DNA from: Vreelandella azerica
Lineage (GTDB): Bacteria; Pseudomonadota; Gammaproteobacteria; Pseudomonadales; Halomonadaceae
DNA length: 64,000 nucleotides
Assembly (NCBI RefSeq): GCF_013112225.1
Contig: NZ_JABFHI010000002.1
Span: 434,001 to 498,000 of the forward strand
Reading direction: 5' to 3'
The notes beneath the pieces were generated by a model, which was given only the letters and a program-made list of their open reading frames with translations, did not search any database and was not told the origin of the DNA. Numbering within the stretch: position 1 is the stretch's first letter; each line of letters starts with the position of its first letter. Shown here one piece after another: positions 1,182-55,888 of the stretch. Both the position numbers and the translations under genes were made by a program.

Positions 1182-2864
1182 ATGACCGAGTCTAATAACA
1201 CGTCACGTCGCCATTCATCCCAGGTGGTTGATGGCCCGGGTAAAGCGGCTAGCCGTGCCATGCTGCGCGCCGTTGGGTTTAACGATGATGACTTCAAAAA
1301 GCCGCAAATCGGCATCGCCTCCACCTGGAGCATGGTCACCCCCTGTAACAGCCATATTGGCGAGCTGGCGGAGTTTTCCCGTGATGGTGCCGATGCGGCC
1401 GGTGGTAAGGGCGTTATCTTTAATACCATCACCATTTCTGATGGCATTGCCAACGGCACCGAGGGCATGAAGTATTCGCTGGTGTCGCGGGAAGTGATCA
1501 CCGATTCGATTGAAACCGTAGCGGGCTGTGAGGGCTTTGATGGCCTGGTGACGATTGGTGGCTGTGATAAGAATATGCCGGGCTGTGTGATGGGGCTGGC
1601 GCGCCTCAATCGCCCCGGTATCTTCGTTTATGGCGGCACCATCATGCCCGGCAAGGGGCACACTGACATTGTCTCGGTGTTCGAGGCAATGGGCGCCCAT
1701 TCGCGTGGTGATATTGATCTGATCGAGCTCAAGAACATCGAGGAAACCGCCATTCCAGGGCCGGGTTCCTGCGGCGGCATGTATACGGCCAATACCATGG
1801 CCTCTGCAATCGAAGCCCTTGGCATGAGCCTGCCGGGCAGCTCGGCGCAGAATGCCATTTCCCAGGATAAGCGCGACGACTGCAAGGCGGCTGGTGAAGC
1901 GGTGCTGGAGCTGCTTGCCAGGGATATCAAGCCTTCCGATATCATGACCCGCGAAGCTTTCGAGAATGCCATTACCATCGTGATTGCCCTGGGTGGCTCT
2001 ACCAATGCGGTGCTGCACCTGATTGGTATGGCGCGGACAATTGGTGTCGAGCTGAGCCTTGCTGACTTTACCGAAATCGGCAAGCGCGTGCCAGTACTGG
2101 CTGACCTGCGCCCCAGTGGCCATTACATGATGAGCGAGCTGGTGGCGATTGGTGGTATCCAGCCGCTGATGAAGATTCTGCTTGATGCGGGCCTGCTGAA
2201 CGGTGAGTGCCTGACGGTCACCGGCAAGACGCTGGCGGAAAACCTGGCGGACGTTGAGCCTTACCCCATGGATCAGCAGATCATTGCTCCGCTGGGTAAC
2301 CCGCTGAAGGCGGAAAGCCACCTGCGTATCCTGTTCGGCAATCTGGCACCGGAAGGCGCTGTGGCCAAGATCACCGGCAAGGAGGGCACCCGCTTCAGCG
2401 GCTCGGCGCGGGTGTTTGGCTCTGAAGAGGAAGCGCAGGCCCGCATCAACGATGGCACTGTGGTCGCCGGTGACGTGGTCGTGATTCGTTACGAAGGCCC
2501 CAAGGGTGGCCCGGGTATGCGCGAGATGCTCACGCCTACCTCAGCGATCATGGGCCGTGGCCTGGGTAACGATGTTGCCCTGATCACCGATGGCCGTTTC
2601 TCTGGCGGCAGCCACGGCTTTGTGGTTGGCCACGTCTCTCCGGAAGCCTTCGTAGGTGGCCCGCTGGCACTGGTGGAAGATGGCGACGCGATCACCATTG
2701 ACGCTGAAGCCGACACCATTGATGTGCATATCAGCGACGAAGAGATGGCCCGCCGGCGCGCAGCCTGGCAGCAGCCTACGCCGCGTTATGCCAAAGGGGT
2801 GCTGGCGAAGTACGCCAAGCAGGTCAGCTCAGCCAGCACTGGCGCGGTGACTGATGGTGAATAA
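1182..2864 (+). CDS. ilvD: Dihydroxy-acid dehydratase IlvD (short, [2Fe-2S]-type)
   Basis: Catalyses the dehydration of 2,3-dihydroxy-isovalerate and 2,3-dihydroxy-3-methylvalerate to the 2-keto acids of the valine and isoleucine pathways. The protein has 560 residues and carries the three conserved cysteines of the short IlvD class: Cys55 in 'VTPCNSHIGEL', Cys128 in 'GGCDKNMPGC' and Cys197 in 'GPGSCGGMYTANTM'. The downstream 'GRFSGGSHGFVVGH' motif is also present. Length and spacing fit the three-cysteine, about 560-residue family rather than the roughly 610-residue E. coli type. The related sugar-acid dehydratases (EDD, xylonate dehydratase) share the fold, but the motif set favours IlvD. 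It stands alone, divergent from recC, and ends at a bidirectional terminator facing proV. The ribosome-binding site before the ATG is weak. Confidence 0.95.
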   Translation: MTESNNTSRRHSSQVVDGPGKAASRAMLRAVGFNDDDFKKPQIGIASTWSMVTPCNSHIGELAEFSRDGADAAGGKGVIFNTITISDGIANGTEGMKYSLVSREVITDSIETVAGCEGFDGLVTIGGCDKNMPGCVMGLARLNRPGIFVYGGTIMPGKGHTDIVSVFEAMGAHSRGDIDLIELKNIEETAIPGPGSCGGMYTANTMASAIEALGMSLPGSSAQNAISQDKRDDCKAAGEAVLELLARDIKPSDIMTREAFENAITIVIALGGSTNAVLHLIGMARTIGVELSLADFTEIGKRVPVLADLRPSGHYMMSELVAIGGIQPLMKILLDAGLLNGECLTVTGKTLAENLADVEPYPMDQQIIAPLGNPLKAESHLRILFGNLAPEGAVAKITGKEGTRFSGSARVFGSEEEAQARINDGTVVAGDVVVIRYEGPKGGPGMREMLTPTSAIMGRGLGNDVALITDGRFSGGSHGFVVGHVSPEAFVGGPLALVEDGDAITIDAEADTIDVHISDEEMARRRAAWQQPTPRYAKGVLAKYAKQVSSASTGAVTDGE

Positions 2865-2900
2865 ACGGTCGTGTCGCAAACGCACGGTTTAGAAATTATA

Positions 2901-2928
2901 AAAAGGCCACCCTCGGGTGGCCTTTTTT
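2901..2928. terminator. Bidirectional rho-independent terminator between ilvD and proV
   Basis: A perfect GC-rich stem (GGCCACCC / GGGTGGCC) with a three-base TCG loop is preceded by an A run and followed by a T run. It can therefore end ilvD transcription rightward and the proX-proW-proV operon leftward. It lies exactly between the two convergent stop codons. Confidence 0.9.
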
Positions 2929-2971
2929 ATTGAGTATTTTCAGGGTTTTTACTGACTGTAGTGGGCGTTTT

Positions 2972-4026
2972 CTACGCTGCCTGAAAGTCTTTTTCCGGTG
3001 GGTCGGTGGGAACAAGGGCGCGCACCAGATCCTTCATATGCAATATACCCACCTGTTCTCCATTCTGAACAACTCGATAGACCCTCTGGGTGTTGCCTTC
3101 TGACAGGGCAATCACCGATTCAAGGGTATCGTCGCCGTCGATATCGCCTGATATATCGTCAACCGGTTGTGTAGTTTTCTCCATGACAGAGCGTACCCTC
3201 AGTACCCGTGCGCGGTTGATATCACGCACAAAGTCCATAATGTAAGGGTCGTTGGGGTGGAGCAGGATATCCTGAGGCTCACCCTGCTGGACGATATAGC
3301 CTTCATTGAGAATTACCAGATGATCAGCGAGCTTGAGGGCTTCATCCAGATCGTGGGTAATGAAAACGATGGTTTTCTGCAGTTCCTGCTGAAGCTCCAG
3401 CAGCAGGTCCTGCATATCGGTGCGAATCAGTGGGTCAAGGGCTGAAAACGCTTCGTCCATCAGCATGATATCCGAGTTGGACGTTAGCGCACGGGCAATC
3501 CCGACGCGCTGTTGCATGCCGCCGGAAAGCTGGTGGGGGTATTGGTTTTCATTACCCTGCAGGCCGACACGGGCCAACCATTTGGTGCCTTCCTTTTTGC
3601 ATCGGCGGGTTTTTTACCGCATACCAGCATGGGTGTAGCGGCATTTTCCAGCACGGTGCGGTGGGGCAGGAGGGCAAATTTCTGGAAGACCATTGACATC
3701 TTGTTGCGGCGCAGTTCCCGCAAGGCCTGTTCGTCATAACCAACAATGTCGTCACCGTCTACCAACACTGCCCCGTCAGTGGGGTCAATCAGACGGTTCA
3801 GGTGGCGGATCAAGGTGGACTTGCCCGAGCCGGAAAGCCCCATGATGACAGTGATCTTGCCCGCCAGAATATCCACATTGATATCCTGTAGTCCAAGCAC
3901 ATGGCCATGTTCTTCGAGAAGGGTGGACTTATCCATGCCAGCTTTGACGTGCTCCAGTGCCGTCAGCGGGTCATTGCCAAAAATTTTGTATAAATGCTGG
4001 ATCGAAACTTTAACCTGATCGCTCAT
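2972..4026 (-). CDS. proV: Betaine/proline-type ABC transporter ATPase ProV/OpuAA (frameshifted in this sequence)
   Basis: ATPase of a quaternary-amine (glycine betaine/proline/choline) importer. From the ATG at 4026 the frame gives the OpuAA/ProV N-terminus, with Walker A 'GLSGSGKSTLIRHLNRLI' and a Q-loop 'MVFQKFALLPHRTV'. Signature 'LSGGMQQRVGIARAL', Walker B 'DEAFSALDPLIR', the His switch and a C-terminal CBS-like region continue in another frame. The frames join near the T5 run at 3594-3598, where one extra base restores a continuous protein of about 351 residues. I therefore read it as one gene with a one-base loss, probably a sequence error. It is third in an operon (proX, proW, proV), 15 bases after proW. 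Substrate identity (betaine, choline or proline) cannot be decided from the ATPase. Confidence 0.88.
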
Positions 4027-45194: not shown

Positions 45195-45884
45195 TTACAG
45201 AGTGGGGCAGTCCGGCGGGTTTGAGTCGGCGGAGAAGACCAGAGTGCTGTAACGGGCGGAGGCATCGCCACCGGCGTTATCACCATCGGTCATCAGCGCA
45301 ACGCCATCAATGCTTGCCGGGCGTTCACCAAACAGACGTTGATAGTCGGCTTGTACATTGCGCACCTCGGCAACCCATTGGCTCTGTTTCTGTTCACCGC
45401 TCTGCAGGGCCAGAAGCTGGGCGCGGTCGGTAAAGGCATTGGGCCAGGCGCTGCCTGCCGGTTGGTTGGATGACCAGACGTAATTCACGGATTCAATTTG
45501 CCAGGGTAACAGGCCTGTCTTGCGCGCCACATAGACCCGCGCGGGGTAGTCATCGCCCGCCTTGGTGGTCTCATCCAGGCCAGGGTAGAGCGAATCGACC
45601 TGCCAGCACCATTTCAGGTAAGGCGTTTTATCAAGATCAATCTCGCGCTCCAGGTATAGCGCCGAGGCCTGGCCGTTGGCCCTGGCCTGAAGCGCTGCCT
45701 GCCCGTCTTCCTCGATGATCTGGTAATCGGTTTCGCCTTCAAAACTGCGGGTCGGCCAGTTTTCCATATGGTAGGGAGAAAAGCGCTGATCGTCGCTGCC
45801 GATGGCGGGAGTGATCACCACTGCCAGCCAGGTCAGCAATAACCAGCGTAGCGCGGAAGACACTAACGTGCTTGAGGCTGGCAT
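45195..45884 (-). CDS. Exported DUF3047 protein of an ECF sigma operon
   Basis: A 229-residue protein with a signal segment ('ALRWLLLTWLAVVITPAIGS') and a DUF3047 domain ('PYLKWCWQVDSLYPGLDETT', 'YPARVYVARKTGLLPWQIES', 'DGVALMTDGDNAGGDASARY'). The family function is not known; the fold is probably a beta-sandwich with carbohydrate- or lipid-binding character. It begins two bases after the zinc-finger anti-sigma gene, preceded by GGAG, so it is third in the operon and is likely part of the sigma factor's stress response. Confidence 0.88.
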   Translation of the reverse strand: MPASSTLVSSALRWLLLTWLAVVITPAIGSDDQRFSPYHMENWPTRSFEGETDYQIIEEDGQAALQARANGQASALYLEREIDLDKTPYLKWCWQVDSLYPGLDETTKAGDDYPARVYVARKTGLLPWQIESVNYVWSSNQPAGSAWPNAFTDRAQLLALQSGEQKQSQWVAEVRNVQADYQRLFGERPASIDGVALMTDGDNAGGDASARYSTLVFSADSNPPDCPTL

Positions 45885-45886
45885 GG

Positions 45887-46081
45887 TTAGCTCCGTGATG
45901 AGGTGTCGTCGGTATCCGGCAGTTTATCACCGAGGCCGTGAAGTAGCTCAAACTGTGATTCACAGCGTCGGCAGGCGCTGCACATTAAGGTATGCAGGCG
46001 CAATTGCAGCTGTTCCCGGCGCGTTAGTGGGCGGTCGAGCTTCAGCGACATCAGCTTGGTCGCTTCGCGGCACATGATCAT
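45887..46081 (-). CDS. Small zinc-finger (zf-HC2) anti-sigma factor
   Basis: A 64-residue protein without membrane segments. 'MCREATKLMSLKLDRPLTRR' followed by 'LRLHTLMCSACRRCESQFELL' is the HxxxCxxC-type zinc-binding anti-sigma domain (His30, Cys34, Cys37, with an early Cys4). Such short ZAS proteins bind and silence ECF sigma factors and often respond to redox stress by losing zinc. It sits between the sigma gene and DUF3047. Two in-frame ATGs (46081, 46075) are possible starts. Confidence 0.82.
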   Translation of the reverse strand: MIMCREATKLMSLKLDRPLTRREQLQLRLHTLMCSACRRCESQFELLHGLGDKLPDTDDTSSRS

Positions 46082-46111
46082 GATCGGCCCCCTTGGGTGA
46101 TCTACCGGCAG

Positions 46112-46699
46112 TTAATGGGCAAGCCAACCTTTTTCAATACATTGACGCAGTTTCAGGCGCGCACGATGCAGGATGACCCAGCAATTGGTTTCCGTGACGC
46201 CGATTTCCTTACAGATCGCCTGTGTAGAAAGGCCCATAAATTCGCGCAGCGTGAACACGCGGGCAATATTTTCTGGCAGGGCAATCATGCAGGCGTCGAG
46301 AGCTTGCCAGAACTGGCGGTTCTCCAACACCTTATCCGGCTCACCCCAGGGTTGAGGGCGCGACGCCGCCTGCCAACGGCCACTGGCCTGGAAAGGAGCT
46401 TCCTGAAACAGCGCATCGAGGGCGTCATCCTGGCTCAGGCTGTCATCAAACTGCCAGCTGGCAAAACGCTTCTGTTGGCGCATGCGTTCAAGCATCTTGT
46501 TTTTGAGGATACCGAACACCCAGGTTTCAAAGGCTGAGCGGCCCTCGAAACTGGCATGCTTTTCGAGCGCCACGACATAGGTATCCTGCACCACATCTTC
46601 AGCGGCAGCGGCGTCGCGCAGTTGCAGCCTGGCAAAGGTCACAAGCCTTGGCCGCATCGCGGCAAGGTGATCCATCGGTGATCCTGTGACCTCAGTCAT
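46112..46699 (-). CDS. ECF-type RNA polymerase sigma factor
   Basis: A 195-residue sigma-70-family ECF factor. Region 2 is visible in 'AEDVVQDTYVVALEKHASFE' and continues into 'FETWVFGILKNKMLERMRQQ'. Region 4 helix-turn-helix is 'FTLREFMGLSTQAICKEIGV'. A longer linker with 'PQPWGEPDKVLENRQFWQAL' separates them, as in a defined ECF subgroup that pairs with short zinc-finger anti-sigma proteins. It is first in the operon, with GGAG before ATG 46699. Its target genes beyond this operon are unknown. Confidence 0.92.
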   Translation of the reverse strand: MTEVTGSPMDHLAAMRPRLVTFARLQLRDAAAAEDVVQDTYVVALEKHASFEGRSAFETWVFGILKNKMLERMRQQKRFASWQFDDSLSQDDALDALFQEAPFQASGRWQAASRPQPWGEPDKVLENRQFWQALDACMIALPENIARVFTLREFMGLSTQAICKEIGVTETNCWVILHRARLKLRQCIEKGWLAH

Positions 46700-51356: not shown

Positions 51357-51908
51357 TTATGAGGCTAGCTGGGCTTTCCAATGGCGTAGCGTTGAGGGGT
51401 GAACGCCAAAGTGTTCGGGTAGGGCAATGTCCTGCTCGGCGCAGAGCAGGCTGATCAGCGCCATATGATGAATGCTGTGGCTGGTCAGAAAGGCCAGTTC
51501 GCGCCCCAGGCTGCTGGGTAGGTAGGCTGTTGTGTGCATCTCATTGGCGTCAAGCGGATAGCCAAGTGTCAGCGCCGTATCGGCTGGCAGTGTGGCCACT
51601 CTGGTCAGGGCGTTATCGATGGCGTGCAGATGTTGCAATGCTGTCTGAGGGCAGGTTTCAAGCCAGGTGTCACGCTTGCGTCCTTCGTAATCCAGGCTGG
51701 CGATGGCGTTCAGGTGATCAAGCAGTGTCTGATAATGTTCAAGAATATGCCGCACATGCTTGCCTACCGACTGGGTGGCCTGTGGCGCTTGCAGGTGCTG
51801 GTAGCTGGCAGGCGAAATATGCTCAAGCAGCGCGGCCAACTGATTGAGGGCCTGGCGGTTTTCCTCGGCCAGCGCGCCCGTGTATGAGAGTAATCTTGCT
51901 GCCATCAT
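51357..51908 (-). CDS. DinB-like four-helix protein
   Basis: About 183 residues from ATG 51908 (a second ATG follows directly; GAGG nine bases upstream; a longer frame to 51959 has no ribosome site). The DinB/YfiT metal-binding fold is indicated by 'QSVGKHVRHILEHYQTLLDH' and 'LGRELAFLTSHSIHHMALIS', which supply the three-histidine metal site. Members include thiol-dependent S-transferases; the substrate is unknown. It lies 78 bases downstream of the Glu-Gly peptide gene on the same strand, so it may be third in that operon. It converges on the ArsR-rhodanese gene. Confidence 0.85.
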   Translation of the reverse strand: MMAARLLSYTGALAEENRQALNQLAALLEHISPASYQHLQAPQATQSVGKHVRHILEHYQTLLDHLNAIASLDYEGRKRDTWLETCPQTALQHLHAIDNALTRVATLPADTALTLGYPLDANEMHTTAYLPSSLGRELAFLTSHSIHHMALISLLCAEQDIALPEHFGVHPSTLRHWKAQLAS

Positions 51909-51986
51909 GACGTTCAACCTCGTCCTGAAATCACTGTGCCAGCGCCAGGGCTGGCACAATGTGGTTTGGGTGATGAAAGGAGGGGT

Positions 51987-52280
51987 TTAACCTGCTTCTG
52001 GGCTGCCTTCTGCGCTGCCTTCGCCTTCTCCCTCGCCTTCACCTTCTCCTTCATGTTCACCCTCGCCTTCCGCACCGCCTTCGGCGCTATGGGCTTCGGC
52101 CAACATATGAGGGGCATCCTCGAACTGGCTGTAGCCACCTTGGGTGTCGTCAGCCTGCGCCTGCATGGCCAGACCGCTGGCAGCCAGTGCCAGTGCCGGA
52201 GCGGTGTAGGCGAACTGGCGGCCAAGACGGCTGAGCAGGCGACGTTTGCTTTCTTGTTGAGACATGGTTTTGTTAGGCAT
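51987..52280 (-). CDS. Secreted peptide with C-terminal Glu-Gly repeats (candidate substrate of the TTL-like enzyme)
   Basis: A 97-residue protein. Residues 1-43 are a basic N-region with twin arginines ('ESKRRLLSRLG') followed by a hydrophobic segment ('APALALAASGLAMQAQA'), an export signal of Sec or Tat type. Residues 44-65 are 'DDTQGGYSQFEDAPHMLAEA' plus HS. Residues 66-97 are almost only Glu, Gly, Ala and Ser, with a run of Glu-Gly dipeptides at 71-88. No cysteine is present. GAGG lies seven bases before ATG 52280. It is 71 bases downstream of the TTL/PqqD/HprK-like gene on the same strand. Its acidic Glu-Gly tail resembles tubulin C-terminal tails, the targets of eukaryotic TTL-family ligases. 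I infer it is the peptide modified by the neighbour. I know of no named family. Confidence 0.75.
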   Translation of the reverse strand: MPNKTMSQQESKRRLLSRLGRQFAYTAPALALAASGLAMQAQADDTQGGYSQFEDAPHMLAEAHSAEGGAEGEGEHEGEGEGEGEGEGSAEGSPEAG

Positions 52281-52351
52281 AACTTTTCCTCTTTATTGTC
52301 GGATCAGATGTCGATCAGGGTCGTGCTGTGCCACAAGACGTCATGGCACGG

Positions 52352-54644
52352 TTAAACGCCCGTGGGCGTCATTTCCTTCCACGCTGGCGTGGTGGGGAAA
52401 GTCGGTGCTATCGCCAGGGCTTCCCGGCAGGCTTTTTCAAGGCTGGCCGGGTCGCGGGGGCTGAGATGTAAAGGCACTTGCTGGCAGAAGGTGTACAACG
52501 TGCTGAGTGTCTGTTCGTCCAGGGTGCTGCGCTGACCCTGAAAGGCATAGGGTAGCAGTAGGCTCATGGCCGCCAGTGGCCCTTTTTCTGCTGCGGCTTC
52601 TTTAGGTATCAGCGCCAGCAGGGCCAGCGGCTGGCAATGGTTTTCAGCGGCGAAAGGCATGCCTGCCACTGGCAGATTCAGTGGGGTCAGCGCCGCTGTG
52701 GCGGATGATGCAAGGCGCGCGCCATGGGTCAGGGTGGCGCTCAGTTGGTCAGCAACTGTACCCAGTGATGCCAGACAATCGGTGTCATTCAAGGGGGCTA
52801 GCAAAGCAAGCTGTTGTTGATCGGTATTCAGCAGCACCAGATCTATCACGCAGGTATTTTCTCCTGCCGCATGATTGAGCAGGGCGTGTTCAATCGCAGG
52901 GGAAATCTCATTCAGGTGCAGGCGTGAGCGCAGAATCCTGGCGCCATCGGTCAGGCAGTAGCCGTTGGTACTTTCCAGCACGGCCAAGCATAAGGAGGTG
53001 TCGGCATCCTGCGCGGCATGGCCTGCCAGCAAGGGCCGGAAATGGGCTTGCAGGCAATCTGCCACTGGCTCTTCCGGCGCGCTCAGCCGCCACCGTTGCC
53101 CGGCAAAGGTTAGCGTCATTGCCTGGCTTGATACTAGGCGCTGGCTCCCCGTGCGCTGCATGGCCGGCGATGTACTATCGGCGGGTGCCAGCAGGCCATA
53201 TTGCTGCCAGGTTTCCAGCGTGGCCCATAGATCCTGTTCAATCTGTTGGCGGGTGGCGTCGCTCATGGCCTGCAGCTGCTCCACAATCTCATTGACAGCT
53301 TGGCCTTCGCCCAGCAGCAGCCAGATCAGCGCTGCGCTGTCGTTGAGCTGGATAAACTGGCCGCTGTCATGCTGGTAAAGCGCCAGTTGGTCGTTATCGA
53401 ACAGTTCGCTGACCTTATGGGCGCGCAGCGCCAGAGGGCGCTCGGGGGTGAGCCGACTATCGGCCAGGCTGGGCAGCCCGGCAAAAGGGGTATAGTCAAT
53501 GGCCGCGTTCGGGTAAAGCGTGGCGAAATTCCCCGCACGCTGATGTTCGGCGGTAAGCGCGGCGGCATCAAGCTGGCGAGGCGCCTGCTCGGGGCGATCC
53601 AGCCCGGTCAGGCTGATCATATCGCTGACCAGGCTGGCCTTGACCTCTTCTTCCACTATTCCGCCGTGTTCAGGGCGAGCGCAGATGCCCAGCGAGGGGC
53701 TGAGGTTGCATTCCAGAATCCACGGCTTGAGCTGATCATCCACCAGACAATCCAGGCCGATCAGCTCATAGCAGCCCAAGGGGTCGGCGCCGCTTTCACG
53801 GCTGCGCGTACGCATGGCGTCAATACCGCTCAGGGCGGTCAGGGTGGCCAGATCGTGGATCTGCGCAAACAGTGCCGCATCGTCATGGCCCTGCTCCCTT
53901 AACCACTGGCGGTAGCGCTCAAGGTCGATGAACTCAACCGGAACGTCAGCGTCTTCATTCAGGGCGTTGATATCCGGGTTGGTTAACTGGCTGTAGACGT
54001 TATCAATATCATCCGGATCCCAGGGGGCGGAGGCCAGCTTGGCAAAGCCCTGGCGGTAGAGATAGATCCGTACGGGCTCGATACCGGCGATCAGCATATA
54101 AAGGCGCAGCACATATTTGTGGCCGCGGATGGTGTGGGGGTTGCCGATATATTCCTGTACCAGCCAGTTCGGCGCCAGCGGTGCCTCGCTAGGGTCGCCA
54201 ATCACCCTGACCCCTTGGCCTTTGGACGCATTGGTCGGCTTGAGAATCCAGCCCTTGTGCGGGTTGGCCGCCGCGTCTTCCACCAGGGCCGGGTAGTCGC
54301 GGGGCATTTCATAGGCGCGCGGGAAAAACGCCAGCCGCTGAGTATAAGGATGGGCTTCCCCGTACTGGGCGAGGATGCGTTCACGCATCCGCTTGAGGCT
54401 GTCATGCAGGCGGCTTTTGATGGTCAGCGCTGCATTGCCGGGAATATGGTTCATTTTATGCTGGGGCGAGGTGGCCTGAAACGCCGCCTTGGGTGGCATG
54501 CCGGTAACCCAGGCCGCTTGCCAGTCGCTGTCATCGCCTTGCTGCCAGCCGCTAGCTTCAAGCGTTTTGCGAAAAAAAATGATCCTGCTCCGCGTGGCAC
54601 TGCCCGCTCAACCAGAACTTTTTGGGGGTGCGTGAAAAGGTCAT
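52352..54644 (-). CDS. TTL-like ATP-grasp ligase fused to PqqD-like and HprK-like domains (N-terminus frameshifted)
   Basis: About 763 residues when the start is restored. The ATG at 54644 (AGGAG upstream) gives 'MTFSRTPKKFWLSGQCHAEQ', a TTL-type beginning. An eight-T tract in the coding strand (54572-54579) shifts the frame; removing one base links it to 'RKTLEASGWQQGDDSDWQAA' and the long open frame (first ATG 54499). Numbered from 54499, ATP-grasp/TTL motifs are 'GWILKPTNASKGQGVRVI' (83-100), 'LVQEYIGNPHTIRGHKYVLR' (113-132) and 'LKPWILECNLSPSLGI' (257-272). A PqqD-like peptide-recognition domain spans about 356-437 ('GQFIQLNDSAALIWLLLGEG'). The last 250 residues resemble an HprK-type kinase without its P-loop. 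This suggests an enzyme that binds a leader peptide and ligates amino acids to it. The Glu-Gly peptide gene follows. Confidence 0.8.
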
Positions 54645-54895: not shown

Positions 54896-54917
54896 CCCAC
54901 AAGCCACGCCTTGTGGG
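54896..54917 (+). promoter_or_regulatory. Hairpin in the leader of the rhodanese gene
   Basis: Perfect eight-base stem CCCACAAG / CTTGTGGG with a six-base loop, ending five bases before the GGAGG ribosome site of the gene at 54932. It may influence mRNA stability or translation; no riboswitch class is recognised. Confidence 0.6.
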
Positions 54918-54931
54918 TGTCCGGAGGACAT

Positions 54932-55888
54932 ATGTCGCGTACTGTTATCAGTTTGGCCGTTCTGTTTGGTTTTGCCACCCAGGCCCATGCCCTTGAGATG
55001 ATGCCCCTGGTTGACGCCAACTGGCTGGATCAGCACCTGGAATCCGACAACCTGGTGGTGCTGGATGTGCGTTCATCCATCGACAACGGTGGCGATGCCA
55101 GAAGCTTCAGCCAAGCGCGCATTCCCGGTAGCCGCTATTCCAGCTATACCGATGCAGGCTGGCGGGAAACTCGGAATGACGTTCCCGGCGTCATGCCCTC
55201 GGTAGATGAGCTGGAAAGCCTGATTGGTGGCCTGGGTATTGGTAACGACAGCCAAGTGGTGATTGTGCCTGCCGGTACTGGAGCAACCGACTTTGGCAGT
55301 GCAGCTCGCGTGTACTGGACCTTCAAGGTGTTGGGCCATGACGACGTCGCCATTCTGGACGGCGGCTTTGCTGGTTGGCAGCAGCAGGGCTTTGAAGTGG
55401 CAAGTGGCCGAGTAGCTGCACCTGAGGAAGTGGATTTCAGCGCCTCCCTGCAGGATGCTTTGTTGGCAACCACCGAGGAGACAACGGCAGCGATTGATTC
55501 CTCAGCCCAGCTAGTCGATGCGCGCCCAGCAGGCTTTTATACCGCGGATACGCAATCATCAGCCACGCTGGCCGCGGGTACCATTCCTACCTCTGTGAAT
55601 CTTGAACACCAGAAATATATCACTGAGCGTGATGGTGCCTATTACCTGGACGAAGCGCCGCTGATGTCGCGGATCGATGAACTGGGGTTGGACGCAGAAA
55701 CGCCCACCATCGCTTTCTGCAATACCGGTCATTGGGCGGCGATTGGCTGGTTCATGCTTCAGGAGGTCGCCGGGTTCGAAAATACCTCCATGTACGATGG
55801 TTCCATGGCTGAGTGGACACGTCAGAACGAGCTGCCGTTGCAGGTAGCGGGTGGTAGCGTGACCACGGTAGGCGAACAGGTTAATTAA
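54932..55888 (+). CDS. Periplasmic thiosulfate sulfurtransferase (two-domain rhodanese)
   Basis: A 318-residue exported rhodanese from ATG 54932 (GGAGG upstream), with signal peptide 'MSRTVISLAVLFGFATQAHA'. Two rhodanese domains are present: an inactive N-terminal one ('DNLVVLDVRSSIDNGGDARS', no catalytic Cys) and an active C-terminal one with 'TPTIAFCNTGHWAAIGWFML' (Cys in CxxGxxA). It transfers sulfane sulfur, for example from thiosulfate, to thiols or cyanide in the periplasm. Residues near 'IPGSRYSSYTDAGWR' match the family. It is divergent from the TTL-like gene and 46 bases upstream of a TetR gene. Confidence 0.9.
   Translation: MSRTVISLAVLFGFATQAHALEMMPLVDANWLDQHLESDNLVVLDVRSSIDNGGDARSFSQARIPGSRYSSYTDAGWRETRNDVPGVMPSVDELESLIGGLGIGNDSQVVIVPAGTGATDFGSAARVYWTFKVLGHDDVAILDGGFAGWQQQGFEVASGRVAAPEEVDFSASLQDALLATTEETTAAIDSSAQLVDARPAGFYTADTQSSATLAAGTIPTSVNLEHQKYITERDGAYYLDEAPLMSRIDELGLDAETPTIAFCNTGHWAAIGWFMLQEVAGFENTSMYDGSMAEWTRQNELPLQVAGGSVTTVGEQVN

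Follow-up and report, generated by a model that had tools for sequence, protein, structure and literature searches.

The enzyme described here, carried by certain salt-loving marine bacteria, combines a ligase domain of the tubulin tyrosine ligase (TTL) family, a PqqD-like RiPP recognition element (RRE) and an HprK-like region in one polypeptide, as the sequence-only reading had proposed, and genome comparisons at the sequence level strongly support its pairing with exported peptides that bear a common leader and a Glu-Gly tract. The fused protein is probably a TTLL-type ligase guided by its RRE to attach amino acids, most plausibly glutamate, to the Glu side chains of exported Glu-Gly tracts, a chemistry that we infer. 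A wider proposal, held tentatively and at slightly less than even chances, is that this bacterial TTLL-type glutamylase, aimed by its RRE, writes branched glutamates on a portable Glu-Gly tag of exported peptides and of a c-type cytochrome; the system would then be a prokaryotic counterpart of the tubulin code, with a tag that on the cytochrome is evolutionarily exchangeable for a Cys-rich tract.

The genes lie on the minus strand of the window (the whole stretch of 64,000 nucleotides that was analysed) in the order fused enzyme, Glu-Gly peptide and DinB-like gene, with the following features:

52352..54499, minus strand: fused enzyme with TTL-family ligase, PqqD-like RRE and HprK-like region; an open frame of 715 aa in the assembly.
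54500..54644, minus strand: stretch where the first ~50 codons of the enzyme are expected; out of frame here, intact in relatives.
53666..54463, minus strand: TTL/TTLL-type ATP-grasp domain, residues 13-278 (Pfam PF03133, E 4.9e-50; TTLL6/TTLL7 structures).
53189..53380, minus strand: PqqD-like domain, the RRE, residues 374-437 (Pfam PF05402, E 2e-12; TbiB1/TfuB1 matches).
52355..53155, minus strand: HprK-like region without a conserved P-loop (profile and fold comparison).
51987..52280, minus strand: exported Glu-Gly peptide of 97 aa, or 92 aa if the start is at 52265 (ORF list, relatives).
52173..52247, minus strand: leader motif KRRLLSRLGRQFAYTAPALALAASG, residues 12-36, overlapping the signal peptide (22-leader profile, genome searches).
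51990..52100, minus strand: Glu-Gly tract, residues 61-97, the likely modification site (sequence, composition).
51357..51959, minus strand: DinB-like protein with invariant His, the conserved third gene of the module (Pfam, BLAST, alignment).

The peptide follows the enzyme downstream on the shared strand, with a gap of 71 bp from the enzyme stop. The enzyme had previously been taken to extend to position 54644, where an ATG is indeed present, but the ~50 N-terminal codons, in frame in relatives, are here separated from the rest by a frame change, either a sequencing error or a genuine defect, at a homopolymer run near 54572-54580 in this assembly. Cross-genus BLAST placed the DinB-like gene in 39 of 41 neighbourhoods, and its His clusters are invariant among the eight sequences aligned. 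An exported rhodanese-like gene (54911-55888, plus strand) lies divergent from the enzyme, and its family is present in 13/13 of the Halomonas-set neighbourhoods compared. Elsewhere in the window (45195-46699, minus strand) are an ECF sigma factor, a zf-HC2-like ORF of 64 aa and a DUF3047 gene; this operon corresponds to one at locus L124 that adds DoxX and a second Glu-Gly peptide, neither of which was seen at the window operon. A role in defence was considered and set aside, as PADLOC gave no match for the enzyme or the peptide and one weak match for the DinB-like protein (E 0.0083). A plasmid search with a Marinobacter enzyme gave no match at E 1e-5.

The ligase region of the window enzyme matches the Pfam TTL family PF03133 with 170.8 bits against a cut-off of 20.1. 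Known TTL-family members add free amino acids. When a profile of 22 homologues was compared with solved structures, the only entries covered by this ranking, TTLL6 came first (E 7.3e-51, 176.6 bits) and TTLL7 second (E 1.8e-44, 155.5 bits), with TTL at E 8e-12 and no more than 47.5 bits; a single homologue as query placed TTLL6 and TTLL7 ahead of TTL in the same order. The TTL-like ligase of the sequence-only reading is thereby upheld as to family, but the polyglutamylases TTLL6 and TTLL7 are closer than TTL, and their far higher scores weaken an interpretation as a tyrosine ligase. This closeness is not peculiar to the fused-enzyme family, since other bacterial TTLs share it: the stand-alone enzyme at L034 is likewise nearest to TTLL7 and TTLL6. 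At that locus (1411-3456), the stand-alone TTL-family ligase (367 aa) adjoins a protein of 248 aa with EWTRPLVESVV in its signal region, and the two are perhaps a related ligase-substrate pair.

Two TTLL6 sequences in the PDB differ at three sites in the stretch considered, one having C-Q and H and the other A-R and I; the latter is presumably the form engineered for branch initiation. At these sites [A/S]-[R/K] and L are present in the bacterial enzymes of 45/45 genomes examined (loci L119-L158, L028, L016, L048, L059 and L062), and judged by these residues they are nearer to the A-R/I form than to the C-Q/H form. A review divides the TTLLs into initiases and elongases and mentions a suggested preference of polyglutamylases for Glu within Gly-Glu (PMC9117372).

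The PqqD match of the window enzyme lies above the Pfam cut-off, and a C-terminal-half profile retrieves the lasso RREs TbiB1 at E 3.3e-7 and TfuB1 at E 7.3e-5. When the fold predicted for the last 362 residues of the window enzyme (mean pLDDT 79.6, pTM 0.66) was searched with Foldseek, the six best matches were all TbiB1/TfuB1 chains (E 8.3e-5 to 8.5e-4, TM by target 0.83-0.91), and the best-matching chains had been solved with leader peptides. The earlier assignment of the middle domain as PqqD-like is therefore borne out by Pfam and by a predicted fold like that of the lasso RREs, and no contrary structure prediction was obtained. HPr kinases rank after these chains, from E 0.013, with 1kkm (E 0.013, prob 0.96) a weak match. 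For the C-terminal part by itself Pfam and NCBIfam gave no match; in profile-profile comparison it resembles the HprK-related kinase A proteins (prob 94, E 1.4e-7, 11% identity). A P-loop (Walker A) is present in the three HprK-related proteins compared and is not conserved among the 23 fused-enzyme sequences aligned, and a kinase reading of this part was rejected on that ground; its description as HprK-like thus holds for the resemblance, by profile and weakly by fold, but not for a conserved P-loop. In NCBIfam, the enzyme scores 21 bits with TIGR04353, below the cut-off of 35, and has no match to TIGR04352.

The 97-aa peptide is the sole window ORF, among 363 of at least 50 aa, with at least seven EG/GE pairs and more than 30% E+G, and it contains no Cys. 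Translation may instead begin with the ATG at 52265 (92 aa), since the Met there opens the MSQ with which most relatives start. The family has a common leader, LL..L....YxxPx[LMF], and in the 22 leaders aligned M1, L10, L11, L14 and P23 are invariant, a conservation that supports the earlier suggestion of the N-terminal part of the peptide as the likely recognition element. Among 81 distinct leader-bearing ORFs, retrieved with a search pattern that fixed LL, L and P, three positions ahead of the leader Pro Tyr occurs 55 times and Val 19 times, and two positions past it L, M or F occurs 76 times; the Marinobacter cytochromes treated below have Val where others have Tyr. Comparison of the leader with PDB chains gave matches at chance level only. 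The YxxPxL that we take lasso leaders to carry resembles this motif.

All 74 substrates fall into either a class of 48 free peptides, sorted by the absence of Cys after residue 50, or a haem class of 26. The tails of the 48 distinct free peptides are composed of 39% Glu, 31% Gly, 19% Ala and 6% Lys, which is partly a selection effect, as the ORFs were chosen for their EG/AE/GE content; the residue before Glu is Gly in 418 cases, Ala in 294 and Glu in 19. The peptide and the cytochromes match Pfam TrAA12 weakly; these matches coincide with the Glu-Gly tract and were taken for low complexity.

The distribution of the leader follows that of the enzyme. The Halomonas set comprises 58 genomes (37 of the genus, including the window's own, and 21 of the order), and the enzyme was found in 14 of them; the leader, searched with a profile built from enzyme loci, occurs in 14/14 enzyme-bearing and 0/44 other genomes, and an extra match in G029 (E 0.007) looks like chance. 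Enzyme matches were found in 29 of the 120 genomes of the Marinobacter set, the genus of G543, 25 being full length, two split (G789 and G793) and two remnants (G704 and G760), and the leader was found in 28 genomes: all 27 with a full or split enzyme and one of the 93 others (G723, weak). With relatedness ignored, Fisher p values are 1e-13 for the Halomonas set and 5e-26 for the Marinobacter set. Of the 40 loci L119-L158, 39 have a free peptide directly downstream of the enzyme in the same orientation, and the fortieth (L151) has the cytochrome form only. The pairing with Glu-Gly peptides is thus near-obligatory, and a peptide gene beside the homologues, as foreseen by the sequence-only reading, is the rule.

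Outside these two sets the fusion is rare. Eleven of 369 class genomes gave a match, with the enzyme family itself present only in the window's own genome, G322, G212 and G418 (the last over model positions 2-467), and the remaining matches were TTL-only or PqqD/HprK pieces; three of 299 phylum genomes matched, namely the window's own, G543 and G437, the last over 36 positions. The fused enzyme is also carried by an alphaproteobacterial MAG, Robiginitomaculum (L028), whose leader-like protein was not matched by the leader profile.

A cytochrome c with one haem and a SoxA/TsdA-like domain also bears the leader and Glu-Gly tract, and at L124 a second free peptide sits in an ECF sigma - DoxX - zf-HC2 - DUF3047 operon. 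By leader search, six of the 14 enzyme genomes in the Halomonas set have the cytochrome, four have a second peptide and four, among them the window genome, have a single peptide only; a search of 23 genomes of the window's genus that lack the enzyme gave no such cytochrome. The Glu-Gly tract precedes the haem domain in 26 cytochromes, far from the C-terminus, and the alphaproteobacterial cytochrome has acidic tracts both before and after this domain. Because the tract also precedes, and once also follows, the cytochrome c domain, a portable tract is a likelier target than a C-terminal tail; the Glu-rich target proposed earlier is in this respect retained as a tract but not as a tail.

The cytochrome domain is present in 57 of the 120 Marinobacter genomes, 27 of them enzyme-bearing and 30 enzyme-less. 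In 27/27 of the enzyme-bearing genomes a leader match lies just upstream of the domain, whereas 26/30 of the enzyme-less genomes (G771 counted by one of its two cytochrome copies) have a Cys-rich NPCAAK tract and another signal peptide there; therefore, the tract follows the enzyme and the cytochrome domain does not. In G804 (76% complete), a Glu-Gly cytochrome stands at a contig end without an enzyme match, and the cytochrome of G723, with an internal stop and an altered haem motif, is a decaying copy; the other two enzyme-less genomes with the domain, G704 and G760, hold remnants. The NPCAAK cytochromes of enzyme-less Marinobacter are those at L165, L166, L168-L171, L174-L192 and L194; a DUF6969 gene follows at L170, with similar ORFs in L166, L168, L169, L171 and L184. 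The NPCAAK tract is possibly another modified or metal-binding tract.

Decay of the module can be seen in two Marinobacter genomes. In G704, 93 residues from the beginning of the enzyme are left, along with most of the DinB-like protein, and the cytochrome has neither leader nor tract; G760 retains pieces of the enzyme and cytochrome; the free peptide was not found in either. Peptides are intact where the enzyme is split, in G789 and G793, and in the window, where it has the frame change; this coexistence counts against the reading of the tract as a tag written by the enzyme.

For the system as a whole, the comparisons show the domains, the RRE fold, the leader family, the pairing across genomes and the exchange of the cytochrome tract; that the leader is bound, which reaction takes place with which donor amino acid, whether modification precedes export and what the tag does are matters of inference. 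The PqqD-like RRE would grip the leader of the exported protein around YxxPx[LMF], a stretch that would double as signal peptide, and would do so in the cytoplasm, ahead of export. Signal-peptide-bearing precursors are known among MNIO substrates (PMC12452194). The TTLL-type ATP-grasp domain would then activate the side-chain carboxylates of Glu within the alternating [G/A]-E tract, linking amino acids to them through isopeptide bonds and initiating glutamate branches as in tubulin glutamylation; glutamate is the likelier donor because of the ligase family, and glycine is the main alternative. The HprK-like part, lacking an ATP site, would probably serve as a scaffold. The decorated free peptides and cytochrome c would then be exported, and the acidic brush would probably bind cations or metals there, as suggested by the exchange for a Cys-rich tract and by the bufferin-like gene company; this function is the least certain step.

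A graspetide-like reaction, in which the ATP-grasp domain would instead crosslink Glu carboxylates to Lys, Ser or Thr side chains of the same tract and so make the peptide cyclic or netted, is unlikely: the known members of its family, TTL, attach free amino acids, and 8 of the 48 free-peptide tails are without any Lys, Ser or Thr. Other tails do have such residues, and those of Marinobacter, with up to 13 Lys, make crosslinks possible there. Graspetide ligases are themselves ATP-grasp enzymes acting on leader-bearing precursors, and a graspetide survey contains no occurrence of 'tubulin' or 'TTL' (PMC8939145).

We consider it improbable that the enzyme lengthens the C-terminus in the way TTL attaches Tyr to tubulin, and leaves Glu side chains alone. 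Three substrates (L031-L033) end in Gly-Tyr, and TTLL11 is reported to be able to initiate chains at a free C-terminal carboxyl (PMC11574253); however, the C-termini vary, with 15 tetrapeptides among 48 peptides, the tract of the 26 cytochromes lies before the haem domain, far from the C-terminus, and TTL is a weaker match than TTLL6/7. There is similarly little likelihood that the tract stays unmodified and works as such, e.g., in metal binding, with the fused protein an export or storage chaperone that binds the leader only: the ECF sigma, DoxX and zf-HC2 genes near some Glu-Gly peptides, and the Cys-rich tract that the same cytochrome can bear instead, do not require a modification, but the ligase region is the best conserved stretch of the fused protein, and its KPxN..[RK]G and ECNLSPS segments, needless for a pure chaperone, are kept in 45/45 enzymes examined.

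RRE-guided addition of amino acids, most likely glutamate, to the tract is the reading that we prefer. Among the titles and abstract openings retrieved by full-text literature searches, in a collection that covers a minority of subscription papers, none describes a bacterial TTL-PqqD system. If the proposal is true, a tubulin-glutamylase-type enzyme gains a defined bacterial substrate, RiPP leader recognition is joined to side-chain aminoacylation, and one modification is aimed at a portable tract on peptides and cytochromes alike. The module would also be compact enough for experiments on how TTLL enzymes recognise Gly-Glu tracts, and it bears on the origin of eukaryotic TTLL-type enzymes.

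Several known systems share parts of this arrangement. The bufferins, including the Buf_EGKCG/oxazolin precursors, are similar in their signal peptide, Glu-Gly repeats and DoxX and sigma-factor neighbours (PMC12452194); they are MNIO-modified, whereas the free-peptide tracts here are without Cys, no MNIO (DUF692) or DUF2063 match was found in the module genes scanned, and DoxX matches HvfX only far below the cut-off. Graspetides likewise involve an ATP-grasp ligase acting on a leader-bearing ribosomal peptide, but the ligase here is of another family and 8/48 tails are free of Lys, Ser and Thr. The PqqD-HprK proteins of the HPr-rel-A type (TIGR04352/TIGR04353) have the same succession of PqqD and HprK-like regions, but they keep the P-loop and have no TTL domain, and all matches to them are below the NCBIfam cut-offs. 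Peptides with a leader of the form RR..LL/FLKKAGKFA.YTPPA, similar to that of the present module, were observed at L037, L038 and L041, at L037 and L041 beside PqqD-HprK fusions, which suggests a leader common to PqqD-HprK systems. The lasso pathways of TbiB1 and TfuB1 share the PqqD-like RRE fold and a small leader-bearing precursor beside the enzyme; here, in contrast, the RRE is fused to a TTLL-type ligase, the leader overlaps a signal peptide, the core is a repetitive Glu-Gly sequence and one substrate class is a cytochrome c. The tubulin polyglutamylases TTLL6 and TTLL7 are TTL-family ATP-grasp enzymes acting on a Glu-rich tract, with Gly-Glu the likely target, as would be the case here; unlike these eukaryotic enzymes, the present system is bacterial, would be guided by an RRE and a leader, and would direct its putative activity to exported peptides and cytochrome c in place of tubulin.
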